Assembly (NCBI GenBank): GCA_031178565.1
Contig: JAPSIU010000003.1
Span: forward strand, 1 to 33,710
Direction of reading: 5' to 3'
Length of the DNA: 33,710 bases
DNA from: Leucobacter sp.
GTDB lineage: Bacteria; Actinomycetota; Actinomycetes; Actinomycetales; Microbacteriaceae
Notes under the pieces: model-generated
The model's input: only the letters and a program-made list of their open reading frames with translations
Databases searched by the model: none
Told to the model about the DNA's origin: nothing
Position numbers and translations under genes: made by a program
Shown here: positions 1-12,721 of the stretch, one piece after another
How the letters are laid out: each line of letters begins with the position of its first letter
Position numbering within the stretch: the stretch's first letter is position 1

Positions 1-2121
1 CTGCAGTCCGCCGCACTCGGCGTCGGCCTGCTGACCGCTGGCGTCGGGCTGCTCGGCGGCGCCCTGATGCGCGGCGTCGTGAACGTCGCCGAGTTCCGCG
101 CCGCTTCGGCCACGCTCGGCATGACCGGCGCGAACGCACGTCGCGGCCTCGCATCTGTTGCCTCATTCCTGGGTGGGCCATGGGGAATCGCTCTGGCCGC
201 GGCATCGCTGTCGGTGCATCTCTTCAACTCGGCGATGGATGCTTCGAAGACGTCCGCCGAGACGTTCACCAACGCGATCAAGCAGGGCGAGTCCGCGGTC
301 GCGGCGATGCAGTCCACTGCAGAGCAGAACGAGCAGGGTATCGCGAAGGCCTTCATCAACGTCGAGCAGCACCTGCAGGATCTCCCCGCCCTGGCCGATA
401 AAGCAGCCACAGCAGGCCGCGGGTTCTGGTCCTCGATGAGCTTCAACGAGAACGCCGCACTCGACTCGATCAAGGAACTCGGATCCTCGCTCGCGACTCT
501 CGCCAGCAGCGACCTCCCGCAAGCGCAGGAGGCGTTCGCGGCGTTCGTCAAGGACAGTGGCCTGGACGACGCGCAGGCGCTCACCTTCTTGAACGAGGAG
601 ATGGGCGGGTTCAAGTCGTCGCTGCTCGATGCAGCGGAGGTGGCCGGTCTGGCTACCGATGACACGACCCTCCTGAAGCTCGCGCTGGGTGAGATCAGCC
701 CGGCCGCAGCAGATGGAGCCTCGGCGGCCGACGGGCAGGCTACGTCTCTCGAGGCGCTTGCTGGCGTGGCTCAGTCCACGAGCGAAGATGTTGCTGAGCT
801 GTCGGATCAGATCCGGGACTTCGGCGGCGCGGCATTCGATGTCGAGGGCGCTGCGATCAAGCTCCAGGAGGAATACCGCGCTCTTTCCGACGCACTTGCG
901 GAGGGTGGGCAGTCGCTCGACATCACGACTGAGGCTGGCGGGAAGACGGTACAGCAGCTGCTCGATATCGCTTCAGCGGCGAATGAGTCCGCGGGTGCGA
1001 CGTTCGCGATGACGGGACGGCAAGAGGATGCCAACGCGATCCTCGACGAGGCTCGTCAGAAGATCATCGACGCCCGTACGGCGCTCGGCGAGTCCCCCGA
1101 AGTGGCGGCGGCATGGGCCGACCGGTTCGTGTCGTCGTCGGCCGCGGTGAATGACGCGATGCAGGAGGTCGCAGACAAGATCGCGGAGATCCCGTCCGAG
1201 AAGAAGCTCTACATCGACGCCGAAACGGCGGCAGCGTACGAGGGCATCGAGGGCGTGCAGGTCATGCAGATCGACGACAAGACCGCGGTCGTGGTCGGCG
1301 ATAACGATGACGCGATGGCGAAGATCCACGAGATCGCCGCGCAGCAGCCGCCGGACAAGATCTTCCAGATCAGCGCCGACGCCGCTGATGCGTACGCCGG
1401 TATCGACGGCGTGAATGTCAAGAAGGTCGACGGGAAGACCGCCTACGTGTGGGGTAACAACGCGGAGGCTGTCCAGGCGATCGAAGACGTCAACGCGAAA
1501 CAGACGCCCCGGAAGGTCGTCACTATCGACGGCGACTCTTCGAAGTTCGAGGGCGTCTGGTCGGGGATTGTCGGACGTGTCGGCGAAGCGTGGGTCAACG
1601 TCTTCGGACGCAAGACCGACTTCGCTGGCGGCATCTACGGCTCCGGCGGCCAGCACTTCGCCGCGGGCGGCTTCACTCATGTGCGGCGGTTCGCGGCAGG
1701 TGGATTCCCGCCGGGAATGTATCAGGGCCGCCTCGGCGGGATCTGGAAGCCGGGCATCGATGGCCTCATGCACAACTTCGCTGAGGCCGAGCACGGAGTC
1801 CCGTGGGAGGCCTACCTCTCGGGGAAGCCCGAGTTCCGGGGCCGCAATATCGCGCTCGCGCTCCAGTCCCTCACAAGGCTCGGGTTCCCGGTGGTGCCAG
1901 CGAGTCAGGTGTACGGCACGAGGGCGTTCGCGACAGGCGATGTGCTCGCGCGGCGTACCTCGGCGCCGACTCCGTCGGCTCCTGTCGGCGGGCCTCAGGT
2001 GGAGCGTCGACGTCGTCGGCGTGGCCCCCTTGCTGAGGTCATCAATATCGGCGTGGACGCCGGAACGAACGATCTGCGGACGTTCGCTGACATGTTCGAC
2101 CGATTCGACCGAGAGGGGTGA
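1..2121 (+). CDS. Phage tail tape measure protein, C-terminal part (5' truncated by window)
   Basis: The frame is open from base 1, so the tracked ATG at 67 is internal and the gene begins upstream. The visible part starts with Gly/Ala/Leu-rich hydrophobic sequence, followed by a long Ala-rich helical region, as in tape measure proteins that set tail length and line the tail tube. Around nt 1195-1545 three similar beta-alpha units repeat; each ends near a phrase like DDKTAVVVG or DGKTAYVWG and then a short helix. The C-terminus has Gly-rich FAAGGF repeats and a segment ending KPEFRGRNIAL, a form common at the end of actinophage tape measure proteins. The stop lies 2 nt before the next gene. 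Family assignment is by order and composition; no enzyme domain was seen. Confidence 0.85.
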   Translation: MQSAALGVGLLTAGVGLLGGALMRGVVNVAEFRAASATLGMTGANARRGLASVASFLGGPWGIALAAASLSVHLFNSAMDASKTSAETFTNAIKQGESAVAAMQSTAEQNEQGIAKAFINVEQHLQDLPALADKAATAGRGFWSSMSFNENAALDSIKELGSSLATLASSDLPQAQEAFAAFVKDSGLDDAQALTFLNEEMGGFKSSLLDAAEVAGLATDDTTLLKLALGEISPAAADGASAADGQATSLEALAGVAQSTSEDVAELSDQIRDFGGAAFDVEGAAIKLQEEYRALSDALAEGGQSLDITTEAGGKTVQQLLDIASAANESAGATFAMTGRQEDANAILDEARQKIIDARTALGESPEVAAAWADRFVSSSAAVNDAMQEVADKIAEIPSEKKLYIDAETAAAYEGIEGVQVMQIDDKTAVVVGDNDDAMAKIHEIAAQQPPDKIFQISADAADAYAGIDGVNVKKVDGKTAYVWGNNAEAVQAIEDVNAKQTPRKVVTIDGDSSKFEGVWSGIVGRVGEAWVNVFGRKTDFAGGIYGSGGQHFAAGGFTHVRRFAAGGFPPGMYQGRLGGIWKPGIDGLMHNFAEAEHGVPWEAYLSGKPEFRGRNIALALQSLTRLGFPVVPASQVYGTRAFATGDVLARRTSAPTPSAPVGGPQVERRRRRRGPLAEVINIGVDAGTNDLRTFADMFDRFDREG

Positions 2122-2123
2122 CG

Positions 2124-3029
2124 ATGTTCGGAACGTGGCAGCTCTCCTACGAGGGCACCGGCTACGAGTTCGGCACTCCCGCTCATGCGGTGCAGGTGGT
2201 CGAGTGGGAGCAGGATCCCGACGTGCACGACGTCGGCGACGTCCGCCCGCCCCGGCAGGACGGCGTCTGGTTCGATGAGGACACCGTCGAGCCTGGCCAG
2301 ATCGTCGTGCATGTGCTCATCGACTTCACGTCTGCGCCGTATCCGGTGGAGGAGTGTGTGCGGCGCGCCATGCTGGCTCGGGCTGAGCTCGAGCGGGTGT
2401 GGCGCGCCGACACCCTTCGCAGGTCGTCGCGTGCGGTCGCGGAGCTCACGATCGGCGGGGAGGTCATCGTCGAGGGCAGGCCCCGTCGGGCCCGCTTCGA
2501 TGACGCCTACCAGAACGTCGGCCGCATCACCGCCGAGCTCCCGTTCGTGCCGGCCCGGCATGAGGTGTTCCTCGCTGGTGGGGATGGCGGTTGGCGGGAG
2601 GCCACGGTCGGTCTGGTGCCGCCGGAGCAGGCCGGCGGATGGATGTTCCCCCTCGTGTTCCCTCTCACGAACCTGCATCCGGTGGTGCGCGGCACGCATT
2701 TCACGGTCGGCGGTGACGCGCGGGCGGCGGCGATCGTCGAGATCGCGGGACCGATCGGTGCTGGCGCCGAGCTGGAGATCCCGGATCTGTGGGTGGTGCG
2801 CACGAACCGGGCGCTCGCGTACGACGAGGTCGCTGTCGCGGACGCGCGACCCGGTCGGGCACTCCTGACGGTGAATGGGCGGCCTGAGAACTGGCTTGCT
2901 CCGTCCTCGTCTCGACTGTCCGAGATCTCTCTTCCCCCGGGCGCCTGGCAGGTCATGCTCCGGGGCTCATCTCTTGAAGGCACGGCATCCGGTCGGGTGC
3001 GGTGGCGCGACACGAAGGCAGGTAAGTAA
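2124..3029 (+). CDS. Distal tail (Dit-like) / phage tail family protein
   Basis: Protein of 301 aa placed directly after the tape measure gene, the usual position of the distal tail protein that joins the tail tube to the baseplate. It is a soluble, beta-rich sequence with no signal or membrane segment. The N-terminus (MFGTWQLSYEGTGYEFG) and the split layout, a first domain to about residue 150 and a second beta-sandwich-like part, fit siphovirus tail family proteins. I prefer ATG 2124 because GAGAGG at 2111-2116 is 7 nt upstream. The tracked GTG at 2118 would overlap the previous stop and sit too close to that ribosome site. The stop overlaps the next ATG by one base (TAATG). Confidence 0.72.
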   Translation: MFGTWQLSYEGTGYEFGTPAHAVQVVEWEQDPDVHDVGDVRPPRQDGVWFDEDTVEPGQIVVHVLIDFTSAPYPVEECVRRAMLARAELERVWRADTLRRSSRAVAELTIGGEVIVEGRPRRARFDDAYQNVGRITAELPFVPARHEVFLAGGDGGWREATVGLVPPEQAGGWMFPLVFPLTNLHPVVRGTHFTVGGDARAAAIVEIAGPIGAGAELEIPDLWVVRTNRALAYDEVAVADARPGRALLTVNGRPENWLAPSSSRLSEISLPPGAWQVMLRGSSLEGTASGRVRWRDTKAGK

Positions 3030-4036
3030 TGGGCTGGGCAATCGATGGGCCGGTGCCGACGGAGGTCGCGGACGGGCGACGGATGCTGTACTCCGCAACG
3101 AGTGGCGCGGAGGGCGTCGGCGGGGTCTCCGATCTGAAGGTTGCGCCCCTCGCGACGCCTGGTCAGGGGATCCGCGTGCTGACCGGTACGGCTCTGATCC
3201 GGTCCGCGTATGGGTCTGCCGGGAACGAAACGTACCAGGGTGCTGTCAGTACGCAGCAGACGGTGGCGACCACGCCGACACCGTCGTCTCCGTCGACGGG
3301 CCGCTCGGATCTCGTGGTGATGCAGGTGGAGGATCCCTGGGCGGTGAACTCACCCTGGCCGACTCCCGCGACTCCCGCGACCTATGATGCGTTCCCGATC
3401 CGCATCATCGAGGGCGTCCCGGCAGGGACGACACGTCTGCAGGACGTCCCCGGCTACCAGACGCGCACCGCGGTCACGCTCGCCCGGATCGATATCCCCG
3501 CGTCGACGGGGACGATCACGGCGGGCATGATCAAGGACCTCCGGAAGGTCGCGCGCCCGAACCGGGACCATGCGATGCGCGTACACGCGCTCACCGGGAC
3601 GGACACTTCACAGATCACGACGACGACGGCATACCCCGCAGGTGGGCAGACCTGGCCGACCGCGGTAGATGCGGCCTGGACAGAGATCGACATCCCGTCG
3701 TGGGCGTCGCGCGCGCGAATCACGATGATCTGGGGCGGCGTACGCATCCCTCCTGGGAATGCGTTCGGCTACACATGGGTACAGATCGCGCAGACAGTGC
3801 ACCCGCAGAACGTGAAGACGCAGGCGACGGCGTGGGATACCCCGGGCCTGTCGCAGAACTCGAAGTACACGCATTTCACGGCGGACGAAGTGACGATCCC
3901 GCCGGAGCTGCGCGGCACGCGGCAGAAGTTCTACCCGCGCGCAAACCGCACTGGCGGTACCGCGTCTGCCGGCATGATCCTCGACTACGGATCCTCGGTG
4001 ATGCTCCTCGTTGATTTCTACGAGCAGGCGATCTGA
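3029..4036 (+). CDS. Minor tail / baseplate protein
   Basis: Protein of 335 aa starting in a TAATG overlap with the upstream tail gene, so it is probably translationally coupled. The first ~170 residues contain stretches such as SDLVVMQVEDP and IPASTGTITAGMIKDLRKVARP, which resemble the N-terminal attachment domain found in many actinophage minor tail proteins. The C-terminal half (about 190-335) is beta-rich and may be a small sugar-binding or trimer-forming domain. No catalytic motif is visible. It likely acts at the tail tip in host contact, which I infer from position; the exact role is unknown. Confidence 0.65.
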   Translation: MGWAIDGPVPTEVADGRRMLYSATSGAEGVGGVSDLKVAPLATPGQGIRVLTGTALIRSAYGSAGNETYQGAVSTQQTVATTPTPSSPSTGRSDLVVMQVEDPWAVNSPWPTPATPATYDAFPIRIIEGVPAGTTRLQDVPGYQTRTAVTLARIDIPASTGTITAGMIKDLRKVARPNRDHAMRVHALTGTDTSQITTTTAYPAGGQTWPTAVDAAWTEIDIPSWASRARITMIWGGVRIPPGNAFGYTWVQIAQTVHPQNVKTQATAWDTPGLSQNSKYTHFTADEVTIPPELRGTRQKFYPRANRTGGTASAGMILDYGSSVMLLVDFYEQAI

Positions 4037-5496
4037 TGCGGTGGAGCGTGCAGCGTTACGGCACGTGGGAGTGGCTCGACTACGAGATGCCGCTCGTCGT
4101 GCCGGAGGGTCCGGAGTGGGCGCTATCCGCGTACGGGATCGTCCGCGCAACCGTCCCCGCCCCAGCCGCGCGCTATCTCGCCGATGACGGACGGGCGATG
4201 TTCGAGGACTGGGGCACGCTCGTACACCTCGAGATCGACGACCCTGGCCGCGTACGGCGGGAGTGGACGGGCTGGGTGAAAGAGGCTGTGCTCGACTCGA
4301 GCGGCTGGGACCTGTCCCTGGTCGAGTTCCCGGGCTATTTCGCGGGCGTCCCCTACGAGGGCCTCGTCCGCGGCACCGGCACCGACCCGGCCGTGATGAT
4401 CCGGCAGATCGTCGGAGACACCCAGGGCTGGGCGAATAGCTGGTTCGGGTGCACCGTCGTCGGCTCTACGCCGGTCCGGCTGGGCACCACGCTCGACGAC
4501 AAGGTCGCGGCGGCGCGTGCCGTCGTGGACGCCCGGAAGAAGACTCTGGACAGTTTCTCGAAGACGAGGACGGAGCAGACGAAGAGTCTGCAGGATCTCG
4601 ATGCGACGCTCTCCGACGAAGTCGTCGCAGCCCGCTCGCTGCTCGCGCAGGCGCAGGCACAGGTCGCCTCTCTCATCAAGGCGGGGGCTCCGTCTGCGCA
4701 GATCGAGACGGCCCGCCAGACCGTCACCGCCCGCCAGGCCACCTACACGACGGCGCTGTCCGCCTACAACGCGGAAGTCGCCGCTGGTCGTGCCGCGCTC
4801 GCTGCGGCGAAGACCGATCAGGATGCGGCTCGTGTTGCTCACAAGGCGGCCGAGGATGCGTACAAGGCCGCGAAGGACGAGCGGGCGTTGAAGGGTGGCG
4901 CGTACGAGGTGCGTGGTGAGGATCTCACCGACACGTACCGTGCGATCAACGAACTCGCGAGGTCGGCGGGGATCGAGTGGACGACTGAGACCGTCTACAC
5001 GGAGGGCGCACCCGACGTGCGTGTCCGGATCCACTATCCGCGGGCGGGCGGACGCCGGGACGACCTGATCTTCGACACCGGCGTGAACATCGTCTCTGCG
5101 CTCGAGCTCGAGCCCGGCGGCGAGTACGCCAACGCCGCGGTCGGGGTGGGTGCGGGCGAAGGACCGAAGGCGATCCGCCGCAGCCTGAATCTCCGATCCC
5201 AGCGTGCACGCCGCCCCGCCGTGGTCGAGGACAAGACGCTCCGAACGGCCGCGCAGGTCGATGCGGCGATGCGGTACGAGGTCGCGCTCCGTCAGGCTCC
5301 CCCGTACCCGCCGGAGATCGAAGTCATCGACCACCCCAACTGCAGGCTCGGCGCCTGGTCCGTCGGGGATCTGATCACGGTGCAGGGCGCGCTCCGCAAC
5401 GGGCTCACCTACCGGGGGCTGCTCCGTGTCGTGTCCTGGGCCCGGAAGGGCGCTACGCGTGCGGTGCTGCGCCTGCAGCCCGCCGAACCAATCTAA
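4036..5496 (+). CDS. Gp37-like minor tail protein with internal coiled coil
   Basis: Protein of 486 aa starting in a TGATG overlap with the previous gene. Residues ~1-145 and ~300-486 look like the two halves of the Gp37-like/Tal-type tail hub domain of actinophages. The N-terminal half has a strand-rich start and FPGYFAGVPYEG; the C-terminal half ends in a beta domain with GDLITVQGAL. Between them, about residues 150-290 are almost pure Ala/Lys/Glu/Gln/Asp helix, predicted as a long coiled coil inserted into the hub. Trimeric hub proteins form the baseplate centre and often carry a fibre. No peptidase motif is evident. Family assignment is from fold-like features and gene order. Confidence 0.68.
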   Translation: MRWSVQRYGTWEWLDYEMPLVVPEGPEWALSAYGIVRATVPAPAARYLADDGRAMFEDWGTLVHLEIDDPGRVRREWTGWVKEAVLDSSGWDLSLVEFPGYFAGVPYEGLVRGTGTDPAVMIRQIVGDTQGWANSWFGCTVVGSTPVRLGTTLDDKVAAARAVVDARKKTLDSFSKTRTEQTKSLQDLDATLSDEVVAARSLLAQAQAQVASLIKAGAPSAQIETARQTVTARQATYTTALSAYNAEVAAGRAALAAAKTDQDAARVAHKAAEDAYKAAKDERALKGGAYEVRGEDLTDTYRAINELARSAGIEWTTETVYTEGAPDVRVRIHYPRAGGRRDDLIFDTGVNIVSALELEPGGEYANAAVGVGAGEGPKAIRRSLNLRSQRARRPAVVEDKTLRTAAQVDAAMRYEVALRQAPPYPPEIEVIDHPNCRLGAWSVGDLITVQGALRNGLTYRGLLRVVSWARKGATRAVLRLQPAEPI

Positions 5497-5509
5497 AAGG
5501 AGACACCTC

Positions 5510-8500
5510 ATGGCTCGTGACCCCATGGAGCGCATCGCTCGAGAAGTCGTGAGCACCAAGAAGCGCCTCGACGCGCTCGCCCGCTCGCGTCAGCTTCCCG
5601 CGACGTCGGTGACGCTCGACGACGGAGAAGAGCAGGACCTCACGAACGTCCTGATCCGTGGCGCTGACGCCTGGGCCGGTGTGGGGGCGATCGATGAGCA
5701 CCTCACCGACATCGGCGACATCGCGGATGATTCCGCGGTCGGGTCCACGTTCCTGCCCGACCAGGTCGCAGCCGCGGCCGGGTCCGCGGACGCCGGCTAC
5801 GACACCGGCATCGTTGCCTGGGAGCGCGCGCAGGAAGCGAAGGCCGAGATCGAGTCGACGCGTGTCGAGCTCGAAGGTCGCCTCACGGACCTGGATCTGG
5901 ATCTCGTCGCCGCCGAAGGACGTCTCGCTGAAGCCCAGGCCCGCGCCGATGCAGCGTTCGGGGCGGCTGAATCCCGGGGGCTTCCGGTCGTGCAAGATAC
6001 CGCTCCTGCAGGCGTGGAGATCCGCCGCAACGTCGTGCTCGCGCCTCGCGGCACGGCAGCACGGGCCGGCAACTGGGCGTCCATGACCGCCCGATCGACG
6101 GAACTCACCGGCGGCCCAGAGTACTGCCCGCAGTGGGGCAAGGGAGTCGTCAGCGCGGCTACGTCCTCCTCGCTGACGTATTGGACGGCGGGAACCGGCC
6201 TCGGCGGCACACCGGTCGTCGGTGGGCAGACGTATGAGCTTGGGATGTCGGTGTACTCCTCGCGGGCGACCGACAACCGCATCGCGATCTACCAGTACCG
6301 GGCGGATGGGTCTCTCATCTCGGCAGACTCGACGATCTTCCCTCTCCTGCCGATCAGCGCTGGTGAGTGGATCCGCCGGGAAGCGACCTGGACCGCGCCC
6401 GCGGACTGTGCGCATGTCCTGCTCGAAGTGCATCTTGTGGCTCCGTCAGGCGGATGGGCAGCGGGCGACATCATCGGGTACACGGCGTCCGCTGTATCCT
6501 CCGGCACGGGCGGGTATTTCGACGGCGGGTATGCGCCAGGACGCACGTACTCGACCGCATGGACTGGGCCGGCGAATGCGTCGGTCTCGGTGCTCTCGGA
6601 GTGGGAGGTGCCTCCGTCTCAGATTCTCTGGATCGACACGTCCGGGGGCGCGAACACGCCCATGCGGTGGGACGGCACCTCCTGGGTTGAGATCACCGAC
6701 AAGACCGCGAAGGACGCCGCGGCGGATGCCGCCGTCGCGCACGAAACTGCGTCGTCGGCGCAAGGTGCCGCGGATACTGCAAAAGCAGCGGCGGATGCCG
6801 CGGCGGTGGCCGCTCTGGAGGCTGCGGATCTCGCAGCCGGGGGCGGCGCGGTCCTCGTGCAGGACACAGCACCCACGGTGACGGAAGTGCGCCGGAACTA
6901 CATCAAGGGCTCGTCGCCGTTGTCCGGGAACATGATCGCGAACTTTGCATCCACGTCGCGATCCGTGGTCACAGATCCGCTGGGGATTTACGGCCAAGTG
7001 ATCCAGGTCGTCACCACTGGAACTGCTGGAGGCATAACTCAGAACGTCGCCACCGGCTCCAACATGGGCGCGGCCGAGATGCCGGCCGGGGCAGGAACCT
7101 TCACGGCCCTCTTCCGCGCCCCGGCGGGCGCGCTGATGCGCGTCGGCGTGCAGGAGTATTCGCCGACGATCACCCCGCGCGGTGAAAACTTCCTGCCGTG
7201 GGCGGCCGCGACGGGCAACTGGCAGGAGGTCACACTCCCCTACACGGTCACCGCCGCCGACTCGCGAACACGGATTGCGGTGCAAGCTCAGAACCCGGTG
7301 ACGTTCTGGGTGGGAGGCGTCTCCGGCGAGACCGGCGCCACCCCGGGCGGGATCATCCTGCCCGGATATCCGTCGCCAGACCCGCTCCTAACGCCCGCGT
7401 GGACCGGCCCGGCGAATGCGTCCCCGTCGGTGTTGCTGCGTGGTCCGGTCCGCTTGGACCGTATCCTCTGGATCGACACCACTAGTGGGGCGAACACACC
7501 GAAGCGGTGGAACGGCAGCATATGGACGGAGGTCACGGATAAGGCCGCGAAGGACGCGGCAACCGCGGCAGCCAGCGCGGCCTCAGCGGCAGCTACCGCG
7601 CAGTCGAAAGCCGATGCGGCGCACACCCTCGCCGGCACCGCGCAGTCGAATGCTCAGAGCGCGCTCACGATGGCGGGCACGAAGGGCAAGGTCTACTACT
7701 CGACGTCCGCCCCTGCGGGCGAGGCGACCGCGCAGGGTGACCTGTGGCGACAGATCGACGACACTTCGAAAGACGTCCTGGCGGAGTGGTACTGGACCGG
7801 GACGGCATGGCAGTCGTCGAAGATCACGACGACCGCGATCGCGAACTTGGATGTCGGCAAGCTCGTCGTCGGGACCGGGATCATCTCGGATCTCGTCGCG
7901 CAACACATCGCCGGCCGCACGGCGAGCTTCCAGACCGTCGATGTGAACAACATCTTCGTCACCGGTCAGGCCGTCATCCAGGAAGCTGTGATCGAGGCGC
8001 TCTGGGCGCAGGTCGTGAAAGCCCGCTTCCTTATCGCGACTGAGCAGATCATCACGAAGGATGTCATCGCAGAGGGAACGATCTCGGCAAGCAAGCTCGC
8101 GTCCGACGTGTTCCAGGGCAATACCTTTATCGGTAACACGTTCGTCGGCGGCACCGTCAGCGGCTCGTTCTTCGAGCTCAGCGGGTACGGCAACAACGTG
8201 CTCCGCCTGTCCGACCCGATGACCAGCGTCACGCCGTGGACTGCCACCGATGGCGCTACGCGAGCGCTCGACTCCCTCATGTTCCGGTCGTCGCCCACGT
8301 CGATGCGTATCACCCGAGGCACGAGCACGTCCCCCACTGCGGGCGCGTACCGAAACATCACGGTACCCGCCGGTAAGGGCGCGGAAGCGGTGTTCTGGGT
8401 GTATTCCCCGACCGCGATGACGGTCTCCGCGAACTTCTGGAACGTGCAGTTCCCGAACCGGGCAACGGAAACGTACGTTCCTGCCGGGGCCTGGACGGAA

Positions 8501-9367
8501 GTACGGTTCAGCGCGGAGTCCCCGTCAGCCACACAGTCATGGACACGCCTGTACATTAAGTCCGGTGGCGGGCTGGCTCCGGCGTACTTCTGTGTCGATG
8601 ACCTCGCCGTGAGCTCGACCGATATTGACAACCGCAAGCTGTCGATCCTCCGAGACGAGAGCGGCGGCCCGCAGGTGTACGGGAACAGTGGCGAGTGGCA
8701 CCGCTTCAAGCTGTACGTCGGGGAACCCCCCGGCGGCAGCCGCGGCGGATCCCTTGCGGTGTGGAACAACGAAGGCACCGTGGTCACCGGATACTCCGGC
8801 ACAGGCGTCAACATGTCCGACAGTGTCGGAGAACGCCTGACGATCACCAACGGTGGCATGAGATGGCCGAAACCGTCGACGTTCAACACGGAGATCCAGT
8901 CGAACTCCGCGACCGGGTTCCTCATCGAATCCATGAACGCGAGCGCTCCACTCACCCTGAAATCCACAGGGAACGACATCGCGCTCTCAGCCAACGCGGT
9001 CACCTCGGATCGCGCGCTGAAGGTCCTCTGGTCTGGCGAGATCTTCATGAATGGCAGTCAGGTCGCCCCGCTGTCGGATCTGGTGACGAACCAGCTCTCC
9101 GGCATCGTGCTCGTCTGGTCCCGATACCCCACCGGTGGGCCCGCGGCGAACGATTCGTGGACGGAGTGCTTCGTACCGAAGCACCACGTCACGATGAACG
9201 TCACCGGCGGATCTCGCGGCATCTATATGACGGGCACGACCGGGTTCACCAGTGGCGGCGACTGGAAGAAATACATCTACATTTCCAACGATCAGATCAC
9301 CGGGAATGCGTCCAACTCGGTCGCCCCGAACACCAACGTCGTGCTCCGTTACGTGCTCGGTGTCTGA
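5510..9367 (+). CDS. Large tail fibre / minor tail protein with tandem duplicated modules
   Basis: The ATG at 5510 is chosen over the tracked start at 5426 because a strong site (AAAGGAGA, 5496-5503) precedes it and the upstream 28 codons overlap the previous gene. The product is 1285 aa. An Ala/Glu helical N-terminal part leads into two copies of a module. Each begins with VQDTAP...RRN, continues as a beta-sandwich like a carbohydrate-binding domain, passes WTGPANAS, and ends in an ILWIDT..GANTP.RW.G phrase and an Ala-rich coiled coil. The middle (IANLDVGKLVVGTG onward) resembles the beta-helical fibre shaft of siphovirus host-specificity proteins. Another beta-sandwich follows at ~910-1050 and a compact C-terminal tip closes the protein. 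It is the likely receptor-binding fibre. Confidence 0.78.
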   Translation: MARDPMERIAREVVSTKKRLDALARSRQLPATSVTLDDGEEQDLTNVLIRGADAWAGVGAIDEHLTDIGDIADDSAVGSTFLPDQVAAAAGSADAGYDTGIVAWERAQEAKAEIESTRVELEGRLTDLDLDLVAAEGRLAEAQARADAAFGAAESRGLPVVQDTAPAGVEIRRNVVLAPRGTAARAGNWASMTARSTELTGGPEYCPQWGKGVVSAATSSSLTYWTAGTGLGGTPVVGGQTYELGMSVYSSRATDNRIAIYQYRADGSLISADSTIFPLLPISAGEWIRREATWTAPADCAHVLLEVHLVAPSGGWAAGDIIGYTASAVSSGTGGYFDGGYAPGRTYSTAWTGPANASVSVLSEWEVPPSQILWIDTSGGANTPMRWDGTSWVEITDKTAKDAAADAAVAHETASSAQGAADTAKAAADAAAVAALEAADLAAGGGAVLVQDTAPTVTEVRRNYIKGSSPLSGNMIANFASTSRSVVTDPLGIYGQVIQVVTTGTAGGITQNVATGSNMGAAEMPAGAGTFTALFRAPAGALMRVGVQEYSPTITPRGENFLPWAAATGNWQEVTLPYTVTAADSRTRIAVQAQNPVTFWVGGVSGETGATPGGIILPGYPSPDPLLTPAWTGPANASPSVLLRGPVRLDRILWIDTTSGANTPKRWNGSIWTEVTDKAAKDAATAAASAASAAATAQSKADAAHTLAGTAQSNAQSALTMAGTKGKVYYSTSAPAGEATAQGDLWRQIDDTSKDVLAEWYWTGTAWQSSKITTTAIANLDVGKLVVGTGIISDLVAQHIAGRTASFQTVDVNNIFVTGQAVIQEAVIEALWAQVVKARFLIATEQIITKDVIAEGTISASKLASDVFQGNTFIGNTFVGGTVSGSFFELSGYGNNVLRLSDPMTSVTPWTATDGATRALDSLMFRSSPTSMRITRGTSTSPTAGAYRNITVPAGKGAEAVFWVYSPTAMTVSANFWNVQFPNRATETYVPAGAWTEVRFSAESPSATQSWTRLYIKSGGGLAPAYFCVDDLAVSSTDIDNRKLSILRDESGGPQVYGNSGEWHRFKLYVGEPPGGSRGGSLAVWNNEGTVVTGYSGTGVNMSDSVGERLTITNGGMRWPKPSTFNTEIQSNSATGFLIESMNASAPLTLKSTGNDIALSANAVTSDRALKVLWSGEIFMNGSQVAPLSDLVTNQLSGIVLVWSRYPTGGPAANDSWTECFVPKHHVTMNVTGGSRGIYMTGTTGFTSGGDWKKYIYISNDQITGNASNSVAPNTNVVLRYVLGV

Positions 9368-9382
9368 CAGGAAGGAGCCGCG

Positions 9383-9724
9383 TTGTCGTACCTGGCCCAA
9401 TCGAAGTTGACCGAGGATCATCATCTCGTCTCCCGCGTCGCCGCGTGTGCGGCAACCCGCGGGATCCGTGACGCTCGCCCGTGGGCGGCGCAGCACATGT
9501 GGCTGCTGTCCGCCCAGCCCGGGTGGGCGGCAGCGTACGCAGACGCGACCGCAGCCGATCCACCCGTGGACCCGGCCGACTGGGTCCCGCATGCCGGCGC
9601 GGATCCGAACGTTATCACTGACGGGATGATCCTCACCGGCGTCGAAGCAGTGATCGCACAGACGGCACCGCCGGCACCGCCTGACCCGCCTGCCGTCCCC
9701 GTACCCACTGAGAGCCCCGCCTAA
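9383..9724 (+). CDS. Small conserved phage protein, function unknown
   Basis: Protein of 113 aa beginning at TTG 9383, behind a good ribosome site (GGAAGGAG) 15 nt after the fibre gene. The first ~60 residues are helical and rich in Trp, His and Ala (TEDHHLVSRVAACAA, then W..H.W.L..QPGWAAAYA). The last ~30 residues are Pro/Ala-rich and probably disordered. Such proteins commonly lie between the fibre and lysis genes in actinophages, where they are annotated as hypothetical. No signal peptide or membrane segment is seen. The stop codon lies in the loop of a perfect hairpin (9710..9738). Confidence 0.62.
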   Translation: MSYLAQSKLTEDHHLVSRVAACAATRGIRDARPWAAQHMWLLSAQPGWAAAYADATAADPPVDPADWVPHAGADPNVITDGMILTGVEAVIAQTAPPAPPDPPAVPVPTESPA

Positions 9725-9756: not shown

Positions 9757-10449
9757 ATGGCGATTTACTACCCGTTCGACCTGTCCCTCGTCTCCGAGTG
9801 GCCAGGCACCCGGCCCGCCGGCTGGGCTCCGCACTGGGGCACCGACTTCGCCGTGCCCTCCGGTACGTCCGTCCCCGCGACGGGCACCGGCACGATCGTG
9901 CGCGTTGGCGACGACGGCCTCGGCGGCTTCACCATCGACCTCGTGGACGACTCCGGCCTACTGCACCGCTTCGGTCACCTCACCTGGCGGTCCGCGCGCG
10001 TCAGCGTCGGGCAGCGCGTCGCCGCCGGCCAGGTCATCGCGCTCTCGGGGAACTCTGGGGCCTCCCTCGGCCCACACCTCCACTGGGAGCTGCGCTGGGA
10101 CCGTCTCTGGTCCTGGGGCGCATGGGTCGACCCCCGCTCGCTCAATCCCCGGCGGCTCGGCAGCTCCGCGCCGACCCCTATCAAGCAGACCGGCGACTGC
10201 GGGTGCGCACGTCGCCGCATCAGGAAAGGACAGAAGGAAATGCATCTCATCTTCCTCACCAAGGGAGCCCGCCAGGACGGGTCCCCCGCGTACGCCATCT
10301 ACGAGCCCGGCCAGCAGGGGTCGTGGGAGGAGTTCGACAACACCACCGCGAAGGGCAAATACGCCAATGCACTGGCGGCGCAGTTCGGTACGCCGATGGA
10401 GGTGAGCCTCAAGAAGTGGCTCGACCTGCAGAAGAAGTACAAGGCATGA
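9757..10449 (+). CDS. M23-family endopeptidase endolysin
   Basis: Protein of 230 aa, ATG 9757 with GAGGAG 5 nt upstream. Residues ~20-125 form an M23 (LytM/lysostaphin type) zinc metallopeptidase domain. The metal ligands are visible as HWGTD (H26, D30) and HLHWE near residue 108, with a further histidine in HRFGHL. It would cut peptide cross-links of host peptidoglycan. There is no signal peptide, so it depends on the downstream holin for release, as in classical phage lysis. A basic Cys-containing linker (~140-160) joins a C-terminal ~70-residue domain starting at MHLIFLTKG, probably wall-binding. That domain has its own internal start signal. The stop overlaps the next ATG (ATGA). Confidence 0.88.
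   Translation: MAIYYPFDLSLVSEWPGTRPAGWAPHWGTDFAVPSGTSVPATGTGTIVRVGDDGLGGFTIDLVDDSGLLHRFGHLTWRSARVSVGQRVAAGQVIALSGNSGASLGPHLHWELRWDRLWSWGAWVDPRSLNPRRLGSSAPTPIKQTGDCGCARRRIRKGQKEMHLIFLTKGARQDGSPAYAIYEPGQQGSWEEFDNTTAKGKYANALAAQFGTPMEVSLKKWLDLQKKYKA
10240..10449 (+). CDS. Possible internal translation product: C-terminal domain of the endolysin (69 aa)
   Basis: Codon 162 of the endolysin is an ATG preceded by AAAGGA (10225-10230, 9 nt away) and a second purine tract AGAAGG. This is stronger than most starts in the window. It is in frame, and translation from it would yield only the C-terminal domain. Some Gram-positive endolysins make such a separate binding-domain subunit from an internal start, and the subunit then joins the full-length enzyme. 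Alternatively, two once-separate genes were fused, leaving the old ribosome site inside the linker. This is inference from sequence only. Confidence 0.5.
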   Translation: MHLIFLTKGARQDGSPAYAIYEPGQQGSWEEFDNTTAKGKYANALAAQFGTPMEVSLKKWLDLQKKYKA

Positions 10450-10835
10450 CCCCTGGCCCGATGCTCGAGATCGATTGGAGCATCGTGCTTACAGCTCTCA
10501 TCGGAGCGGCGGGCGGCGCTGTCGTCGCCCTGATCGGTGCGAGGGAGCGACGGCACGAGACTGCGAAGACGCTCCTGGCTCAGCAGGATCGCGAGCGGCG
10601 CGACCGAGCCGCGCAGCAGGAGGCCGCGACACAAACCCTCATCGACCAGATCCAGGAGGAGCGCGACGCCTACGCGCAGCAGCTCCGCGAGGAGCGAGCT
10701 GCTGGTGACGCTCGCCTGGACAAGATGTGGGCCGACAAGGCCGCTTCGCGTCAGCACGTCGCGCAGCTCCGCGCGCACATCTACCGCGGCGACCCGCCGC
10801 CCCCGCCGGAACCCCCGGTCGGCTACATCGAATAG
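10446..10835 (+). CDS. Single-span membrane protein with coiled coil (lysis cassette, holin/spanin-like)
   Basis: Protein of 129 aa whose ATG overlaps the endolysin stop (ATGA). The tracked ORF starting at 9744 is an extension through the endolysin in another frame. Residues ~12-35 (IVLTALIGAAGGAVVALIGA) form one membrane helix. A long charged Arg/Glu/Gln/Ala coiled coil follows to about 105, then a Pro-rich tail. This architecture, beside endolysin and holin, fits a second holin-like or lysis-accessory protein. It could also bridge membrane and wall. The start has only a weak ribosome site, so coupling to endolysin translation is likely; ATG 10461 is an alternative. Confidence 0.68.
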   Translation: MTPGPMLEIDWSIVLTALIGAAGGAVVALIGARERRHETAKTLLAQQDRERRDRAAQQEAATQTLIDQIQEERDAYAQQLREERAAGDARLDKMWADKAASRQHVAQLRAHIYRGDPPPPPEPPVGYIE

Positions 10836-10843
10836 GAGACATC

Positions 10844-11143
10844 TTGGAAATCCAGATCCCTGCAATCCCTGCGGGCGTGCTCACGCTGCTCAGCGTGCTC
10901 GCCCCGTACGCGATCGCGCTCATCAACCACCCGTCGTGGCCAGCAGGGTCGAAGCGGGTCGTCGCGATCGCGGTGAGCTTCGTGCTTACTGTGGTCGTGC
11001 TCGCCGGTTACTTCGTCATGACCGGCGACCTGATCCCGCAGTGGCCCGTGCTCCTGCTCCTCGGCATCGTCGTCAGCCAAGCCGCATACACCGCGCTCTG
11101 GCCGTCCGTGAAATCCATCGAAGGCCGCCACGGCGCCCACTGA
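10844..11143 (+). CDS. Phage holin, three membrane helices
   Basis: Protein of 99 aa read from TTG 10844, with AGGAGA at 10834-10839; the tracked ATG 10727 extension overlaps the previous gene. Three hydrophobic helices are clear at about residues 9-27, 39-60 and 67-86, separated by short loops, with a charged tail. Size and topology are those of a phage holin, which collects in the inner membrane and opens it at a set time to let the endolysin out. It is the last gene of the rightward late operon and is followed by a terminator. The specific holin family is not determined. Confidence 0.8.
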   Translation: MEIQIPAIPAGVLTLLSVLAPYAIALINHPSWPAGSKRVVAIAVSFVLTVVVLAGYFVMTGDLIPQWPVLLLLGIVVSQAAYTALWPSVKSIEGRHGAH

Positions 11144-11206: not shown

Positions 11207-11833
11207 CTACACGGTCGTCATGGCGCGGGAGATCTCCTCGCTCGCGTGCTGCACCTCGGCGACAAGCTCGGCATCCCCAGGACGCTCGGGGTCGAGCCAC
11301 TCGTCATGCATCTCGCGCGGCAGCACGAGCGGCATGCGCCCCCAGTACTCCGCGGCCTCACTCCCGGCGGGCGCGTCGCGGGTGACCATCGAGTAGGAGA
11401 CGAGCTCGCTACCGTCGTCGCGAGTCACGGTCGAGGTGACGGCCGCGATCCCGAAAATCTCCTCGCCCGGGAGAGTGAAGCGCCCCTTCTTCTCGATGTA
11501 CCATGTCGCGGGCAGGAGGGCTCGGTGCTGGAAGGGACGCTTCCATGAGCGGAGCAGGCGGTCGTCGCGCGAGTTGAACGCCGAGAACTTCACCGGCCCG
11601 GAGCCGTCGAGCCAGAGCCACCACCACGCGAGCAGCAACTCCCGCCCGCCCTCGGATGCGCGGATGATCGGGTTCAAATTCAGGGCGTTCTTCCCTGTGA
11701 TCTTCGCCCCGCCGCCGCGCTGCTGCATCCACTCATCCAGCAGCGACAGGGATCCCTGCTCACTCATCGGCTCGAGACCGCCCGGGAGAGGGATGATCTT
11801 GCCGTCGCCGCCGAGTCCATACGATGCGCACAT
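11207..11833 (-). CDS. SRAP (YedK/HMCES-like) protein with altered active site
   Basis: Protein of 208 aa. It begins Met-Cys, and Cys2 is the residue that, after Met removal, links covalently to abasic sites in single-stranded DNA in this family. Other family marks are visible: FNSRDD (N87, R89, DNA contact), PATWYIEK (E114, the conserved acid) and GRMPLVLP (the family HxRMP loop). In that loop the usual His is replaced by Trp (YWGRMP, W164). Family members shield abasic sites from error-prone repair; phage copies may protect phage DNA. It is the last gene of the leftward small-gene group. Cross-linking should remain possible with Cys2 and E114, but the missing His makes activity or reversal uncertain. 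Confidence 0.88.
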   Translation of the reverse strand: MCASYGLGGDGKIIPLPGGLEPMSEQGSLSLLDEWMQQRGGGAKITGKNALNLNPIIRASEGGRELLLAWWWLWLDGSGPVKFSAFNSRDDRLLRSWKRPFQHRALLPATWYIEKKGRFTLPGEEIFGIAAVTSTVTRDDGSELVSYSMVTRDAPAGSEAAEYWGRMPLVLPREMHDEWLDPERPGDAELVAEVQHASEEISRAMTTV

Positions 11834-11893
11834 GCCGACAGGCTACGCCGCCGAGCCAGTCGTCGCTAGGGCTCCAGCCTAGGCTGATGACCA

Positions 11894-12175
11894 TCAGGGC
11901 TGCTCGACAGCGCCGTTCAGAGGCCCGTTGCGCGACCGCTGAGCGGCCTTGATCGGGCCGTCACCCCAGCGCACCGAAGCGTCCGCAGCAGCTAGCGTCG
12001 TCTGGATCGAGGTCATACGCCGCTGCGCGGGGTCGACATGCCATCCCATGACGAGGAATCGCGCCTCCCCGGCGGTGTCGGTGATGCGGTGCACGATCGC
12101 TGCAGGGTGATCTTTCACGTAGCGCATGATCGCCCACGTGTCGGCGTCCAGTCGGATCGGGTCAGGATTCGGCAT
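11894..12175 (-). CDS. Small phage protein (93 aa), function unknown
   Basis: The start is set at ATG 12175; the longer tracked ORF to 12364 runs through the neighbouring small gene in the wrong frame. The protein begins MPNPDPIRLDADTWAIMRY and contains a compact alpha/beta core to about residue 75 (VHRITDTAGEARFLVMGWHVD) and a basic tail. No signal, membrane segment or known catalytic motif is seen. It lies 30 nt downstream of a zinc-ribbon microprotein gene and 60 nt upstream of the SRAP gene, so all probably share one leftward transcript. Codon-position GC bias supports translation. Confidence 0.62.
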   Translation of the reverse strand: MPNPDPIRLDADTWAIMRYVKDHPAAIVHRITDTAGEARFLVMGWHVDPAQRRMTSIQTTLAAADASVRWGDGPIKAAQRSRNGPLNGAVEQP

Positions 12176-12668: not shown

Positions 12669-12711
12669 TTCCGGTACCGTAGGTCGGGGGTTCGAATCCC
12701 TCCGGGGGCAC
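12669..12711 (+). other. attR: 3' half of tRNA-Arg(CCG)
   Basis: The stretch fits the 3' part of a tRNA by position. It has anticodon loop TTCCGGT (anticodon CCG, 12671-12673), anticodon-stem 3' strand ACCGT, variable loop AGGTC, T stem GGGGG/CCCTC around TTCGAAT, acceptor 3' strand CGGGGGC, discriminator A and a C. No matching 5' half (expected GCCCCCG...ACGGT) exists to the left, where phage repeats lie instead. This is the classic footprint of tyrosine-integrase insertion into a tRNA gene. The intact tRNA should be re-formed at the left end of the prophage, next to the integrase. Confidence 0.82.
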
Positions 12712-12721
12712 TGTGACATCG

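Follow-up and report, generated by a model that had tools for sequence, protein, structure and literature searches.

Locus and Family Assignment

The window analysed here, a stretch of 33,710 nucleotides from a Leucobacter sp. genome (GCA_031178565.1, contig JAPSIU010000003.1, positions 1 to 33,710), encodes on its minus strand (11833 to 11207) a protein of the SRAP family with an intact frame, in which the C-terminal active-site histidine is replaced by tryptophan. The gene and its key codons lie as follows:

11207..11833, minus strand: SRAP-family gene, 208 amino acids, His to Trp at residue 164 (YWGRMP), from open reading frame, Pfam, alignment and AlphaFold
11342..11344, minus strand: Trp164 codon TGG, in the place of YedK His160, from codon reading and alignment (position derived from the residue number)
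11492..11494, minus strand: Glu114 codon (YedK Glu105), kept, from alignment
11828..11830, minus strand: Cys2 codon, the cross-linking residue, kept, from translation and alignment

The protein (MCASYG...FNSRDD...WYIEKK...AAEYWGRMPLVLP) is a member of the SRAP family by homology, as judged from profile, fold, cysteine as residue 2, and the active-site Asn and Glu. It matches Pfam SRAP PF02586 (E 2.3e-12, 47.3 bits with a cut-off of 27.1) and PHROG 1599 (E 5.5e-18), and a PDB sequence search places it in the same family. The AlphaFold model (predicted local distance difference test score, pLDDT, 90.8) has the SRAP (BB1717-like) fold, and all 20 PDB matches with E<=0.001 are SRAP structures. A tblastn search against 50,697 phage records returned no match, nor did BFVD at E<=0.001. 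An artefact of frame or strand was rejected on translation. The C-terminal His that marks the canonical catalytic enzyme (YedK/HMCES type) is missing, and since Trp164 occupies the His160 column and the clade has no other invariant His, the protein is classed as a variant homologue rather than a canonical enzyme.

Conservation of the Active Site

When about 100 sequences are aligned with MAFFT, Trp164 occupies the column of Escherichia coli YedK His160 (IHDRRP) with no gap, and the residue numbers Cys2, Asn87, Arg89 and Glu114 are confirmed in the window protein. Translation and alignment thus bear out a sequence-only reading of this DNA, which had held that Trp replaces the His while these four residues are kept. 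With YedK (PDB 6NUA, 6KCQ, 8D2M) the protein shares the fold as well as Cys2, Asn75/87, Arg77/89 and Glu105/114 in matching columns, but the two are only about 20% identical and differ, apart from His160 versus Trp164, in the N-terminal half and in the WWWLW segment. The SRAP domain of human HMCES (PDB 5KO9, 6OEB), a replication-associated protein of animals, likewise has the same fold and active-site frame, but keeps the His (IHHRMP).

Among 78 relatives of the subfamily, Cys2, Asn87 and Glu114 are each present in all 78 and Arg89 in 77, whereas the His column reads H in 43, W in 21, V in four, I in three, L in three, K in two, and D and N in one each. Within the mobile clade described below, Cys2, Asn87, Arg89, Glu114 and Arg166 are invariant (31/31). 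Twenty distinct sequences of a single clade share the TGG codon, as does one from another genus, so that neither chance nor error accounts for the Trp. These clade sequences are 61–81% identical to the window protein and have retained the single Trp codon, and the median ratio of nonsynonymous to synonymous substitution rates (dN/dS) is 0.27 over 156 pairs, indicating purifying selection. The C-terminal His of SRAP proteins, which has been called absolutely conserved (PMC3765255), is therefore not universal.

A relocated His was rejected, as no His column is invariant across the Trp clade, the best being H176 (17/20), H103 (13/20) and H196 (12/20); the swap thus stands against the objection, foreseen in the sequence-only reading, that another His might sit in the site. 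Most long-loop mobile copies and the majority of chromosomal copies in the genus carry His74, but it was rejected as a substitute because the Trp clade has Trp74. All 20 Trp proteins of the clade have Asp76, which neither of the two members with His, L044 (Ser) and L140, retains.

Phylogeny and Return to Histidine

SRAP homologues were found in 51 of the 54 genomes of the genus. In a tree built without the columns of the site itself, the mobile clade of 31 proteins (support 96/91) comprises a Leucobacter sub-clade of 22 (95/89), in which 20 have Trp164 and two have His, and a sub-clade of nine with a lengthened loop before RMP (97/96; L030, L031, L032, L049, L052, L065, L069, L070, L071). L104, a Trp form of another genus that adjoins an integrase and has Gly76, is placed outside the Trp clade. 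A single clean origin of Trp without His members inside was rejected (approximately unbiased test, p 0.001).

The first of these His members, L044 (L044:5001-5624), sits within the Trp clade; its loop is YHPRMP and its His codon is CAC, three changes from TGG. None of its ten neighbours is phage-like by automatic score, and its genome also carries two Trp copies. From their sequences, we take the neighbours to be a DNA polymerase I-like gene, a decarboxylase-like gene and a surface protein. In this copy, which lies outside a phage setting, Trp has apparently reverted to His, and since its flanking residues are of the Trp-clade type, the His is unlikely to have been pasted in from the chromosomal paralogue. 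That paralogue (L001/L100 in the genome of the window, 52% identical) belongs to the same Microbacteriaceae subfamily and has the Cys, Asn, Arg and Glu, but keeps the His (VHSRMP) and lies among core genes, which we take from sequence reading to be mscL, a YihY-like gene and an IMP-dehydrogenase-like gene. The second His member, L140, is a phage relative on a viral contig. Its SRAP gene has the integrase on one side and lysis genes on the other, the arrangement expected of a cargo gene next to the attachment (att) site in a circular genome.

Among the other REPLACEMENTS, the long-loop proteins (e.g. VVSSRGESRMP) have V, I, L or K in the aligned His column and always Glu or Asp two residues ahead of the Arg. 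L033 and L035 have His at the early place and Glu at the late place, so that the true His equivalent in long loops is ambiguous; L050 plainly has Asp at the His place. As the YedK mutant H160E is just 3-fold slower, the long-loop variants may be acid substitutions. The Trp clade is the one whose site lacks a plausible proton donor. Outside the subfamily, the solved SRAP structure PDB 2F20 (BT_1218, Bacteroides) reads IDNTKHRMP and may also be without His at the usual place. One genome, G023, carries five Trp-type copies (L045–L048, L087), three of them with an identical protein.

Prophage Setting and Phage Association

The window includes the right end of a prophage, with the SRAP gene oriented opposite to the tail and lysis genes and about 0.8 kb inside attR (tRNA-Arg):

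67..9724, plus strand: phage tail genes (tape measure, minor tail proteins, tail fibre)
9757..10449, plus strand: M23 peptidase endolysin
10832..11143, plus strand: small membrane protein in holin position (phrog_30277, function unknown)
11894..12175, minus strand: c9, a 93-residue protein beside SRAP on the same strand
12669..12718, plus strand: attR core, a 50-bp exact match to the 3' end of the tRNA-Arg(CCG) found on C204, another contig of this genome
12918-13775, minus strand: GmrSD_C-domain protein, immediately beyond attR

Contig C204 carries the complete tRNA-Arg(CCG), followed by a tyrosine integrase (attL), RecT, YqaJ and further phage early genes; because the att core is shared, it presumably carries this prophage's other arm. 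The c9 family flanks SRAP in nine distinct loci, all of the mobile clade (L005, L009, L017, L043, L049, L052, L069, L070, L136), so that c9 is a possible candidate partner. It has no Pfam or PHROG match and no confident PDB fold match, and its model is beta-rich. Control of the window gene by LexA (SOS) was rejected, as no LexA box (CGAAC-N4-GTTCG, <=2 mismatches) lies within 300 bp; LexA-type sites with one mismatch occur at L010, L026, L031 and L075. The window gene (box region 11834-11860, minus strand) and many mobile SRAP genes have a TANNNT-like -10 box about 6 nt ahead of the ATG, an arrangement suggestive of a leaderless transcript.

Phage-like neighbours, scored automatically and with several of the negative cases having short flanks, were found for 12 of 21 Trp copies, 6 of 12 long-loop V/I/L/K copies and 1 of 43 His copies. 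The association between loss of the His and phage context is strong on raw counts (Fisher p 9e-8), but comes down to six independent pairs on the tree and is then not significant; with so few independent events, phage context is not claimed to drive the loss. The L006, L025 and L026 groups are chromosomal in appearance. L006 lies directly at the 3' end of a tRNA-Thr, likely an integration remnant. In six near-complete genomes (G002, G009, G010, G014, G035, G043) the Trp form is the sole SRAP-profile match.

SRAPs in temperate phages were already known (PMC3765255, PMC8424206). Those of SPbeta (YoqW), F116, enterobacterial prophages and PHROG 1599 resemble the window gene in being carried by phages, but among the intact ones surveyed almost all retain the His, except for the Leucobacter type and one unverified clone. 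In the viral survey, which is dominated by YedK-like and SPbeta-like sequences, all five residues are present in 124 of 137 different viral open reading frames; apart from the unverified clone (L285), the remainder are of the Leucobacter type, fragments, or changed at other residues. The description of the Trp protein as a phage form, made from the sequence, is thus only partly right: it does not extend to the nine of 21 Trp copies without phage-like neighbours, and it is limited further by the His kept in the phage relative L140 and in the SRAPs of other phages.

Mechanistic Interpretation

Canonical enzymes of the YedK/HMCES type expose Cys2 by losing the initiator Met and form a covalent thiazolidine link to abasic single-stranded DNA that reverses within hours. 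In YedK, His160 and Glu105 open the sugar ring of the abasic site, and Glu105 alone drives formation of the Schiff base, a step unaffected by H160Q (PMC9436759). H160A and H160Q cross-link about 10-fold more slowly, and reversal or exchange by H160Q is severely slowed (PMC9436759). These mutants uphold the earlier statement that the His of the cellular enzyme helps to form and to reverse the link, and since the His is truly absent here, the more permanent link proposed from the sequence is a sound prediction.

With about even confidence, we regard the window protein as a functional, selected SRAP, borne by a temperate phage near its att site, which captures abasic sites and releases them very slowly. 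Cys2 would capture abasic sites in single-stranded DNA through a thiazolidine bond, and Glu114 would serve as the main acid/base. Because Trp replaces the His, there would be no proton donor to help open the sugar ring or undo the bond; formation of the link would be slowed several-fold and its release slowed far more, leaving a near-permanent cap. The residues, their conservation, the clade and the prophage location are observed directly, whereas the slow kinetics in both directions are inferred by analogy with the YedK mutants, and any advantage gained by capping phage or host DNA over long periods is a guess. Such a benefit is plausible because a base-excising defence (Brig1) exists, although deletion of E. 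coli yedK left Brig1 immunity unaltered (PMC11078745) and nothing here ties the window gene to defence. Several points weigh against this view. The literature surveyed contained no biochemistry on any Trp variant, the bulky Trp could, unlike Gln or Ala, block the sugar pocket altogether, and a slower, non-releasing enzyme is of no obvious use to a phage. Furthermore, the joint invariance of Asp76 and Trp164 hints at compensation.

A somewhat unlikely alternative is a shift of substrate, in which the Trp form would act on already-open aldehydes, the 3'-phospho-unsaturated-aldehyde (3'-PUA) ends left by lyases, instead of intact closed-ring abasic sites. In YedK, 3'-PUA ends are less dependent on the His (PMC9436759), and Asn87 is invariant, a residue with a YedK counterpart of greater importance for 3'-PUA; yet wild-type YedK already handles both substrates. 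That another residue has taken over the proton chemistry with near-normal kinetics is unlikely. Asp76 would be the best candidate, given its distribution within the clade and the modest effect of H160E, which shows that a carboxylate can serve, but the independent Trp form L104 has Gly76, and YedK has an Asp in the region of residue 76 (WWD) along with its His. A conversion to non-covalent DNA binding, the second option of the sequence-only reading, or to a regulatory role is improbable: a catalytic residue is lost and a small partner gene stands beside SRAP in nine mobile-clade loci, but all 31 mobile-clade proteins retain Cys2 and Glu114, on which covalent linkage depends, and this option fits that poorly. 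Decay to an inactive copy is highly improbable, for although there are broken copies among the relatives (L024/L099 through an in-frame TAG; L079, L080 and L098 by an in-frame stop or split frames), the window gene has an open frame, a dN/dS of 0.27, an invariant active site and a Trp fixed over the clade down to 61% identity.

Returning to slow-release capture, a rather unlikely extension to the whole Trp clade would make its members natural capture-without-release SRAPs by which temperate phages permanently cap abasic DNA, with the His restored by selection, through three nucleotide changes, in the non-phage L044. A natural, clade-wide loss of the catalytic SRAP His was not found in the literature surveyed, itself incomplete. 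The Trp clade offers a natural test of uncoupling bond formation from release and bears on an open question in DNA repair, namely whether and how SRAP/HMCES links are released. Its capture residues are kept and its release-assisting residue is swapped; together with the His paralogue that shares the genome and the apparent reversion inside the clade, this provides matched pairs without artificial mutants.
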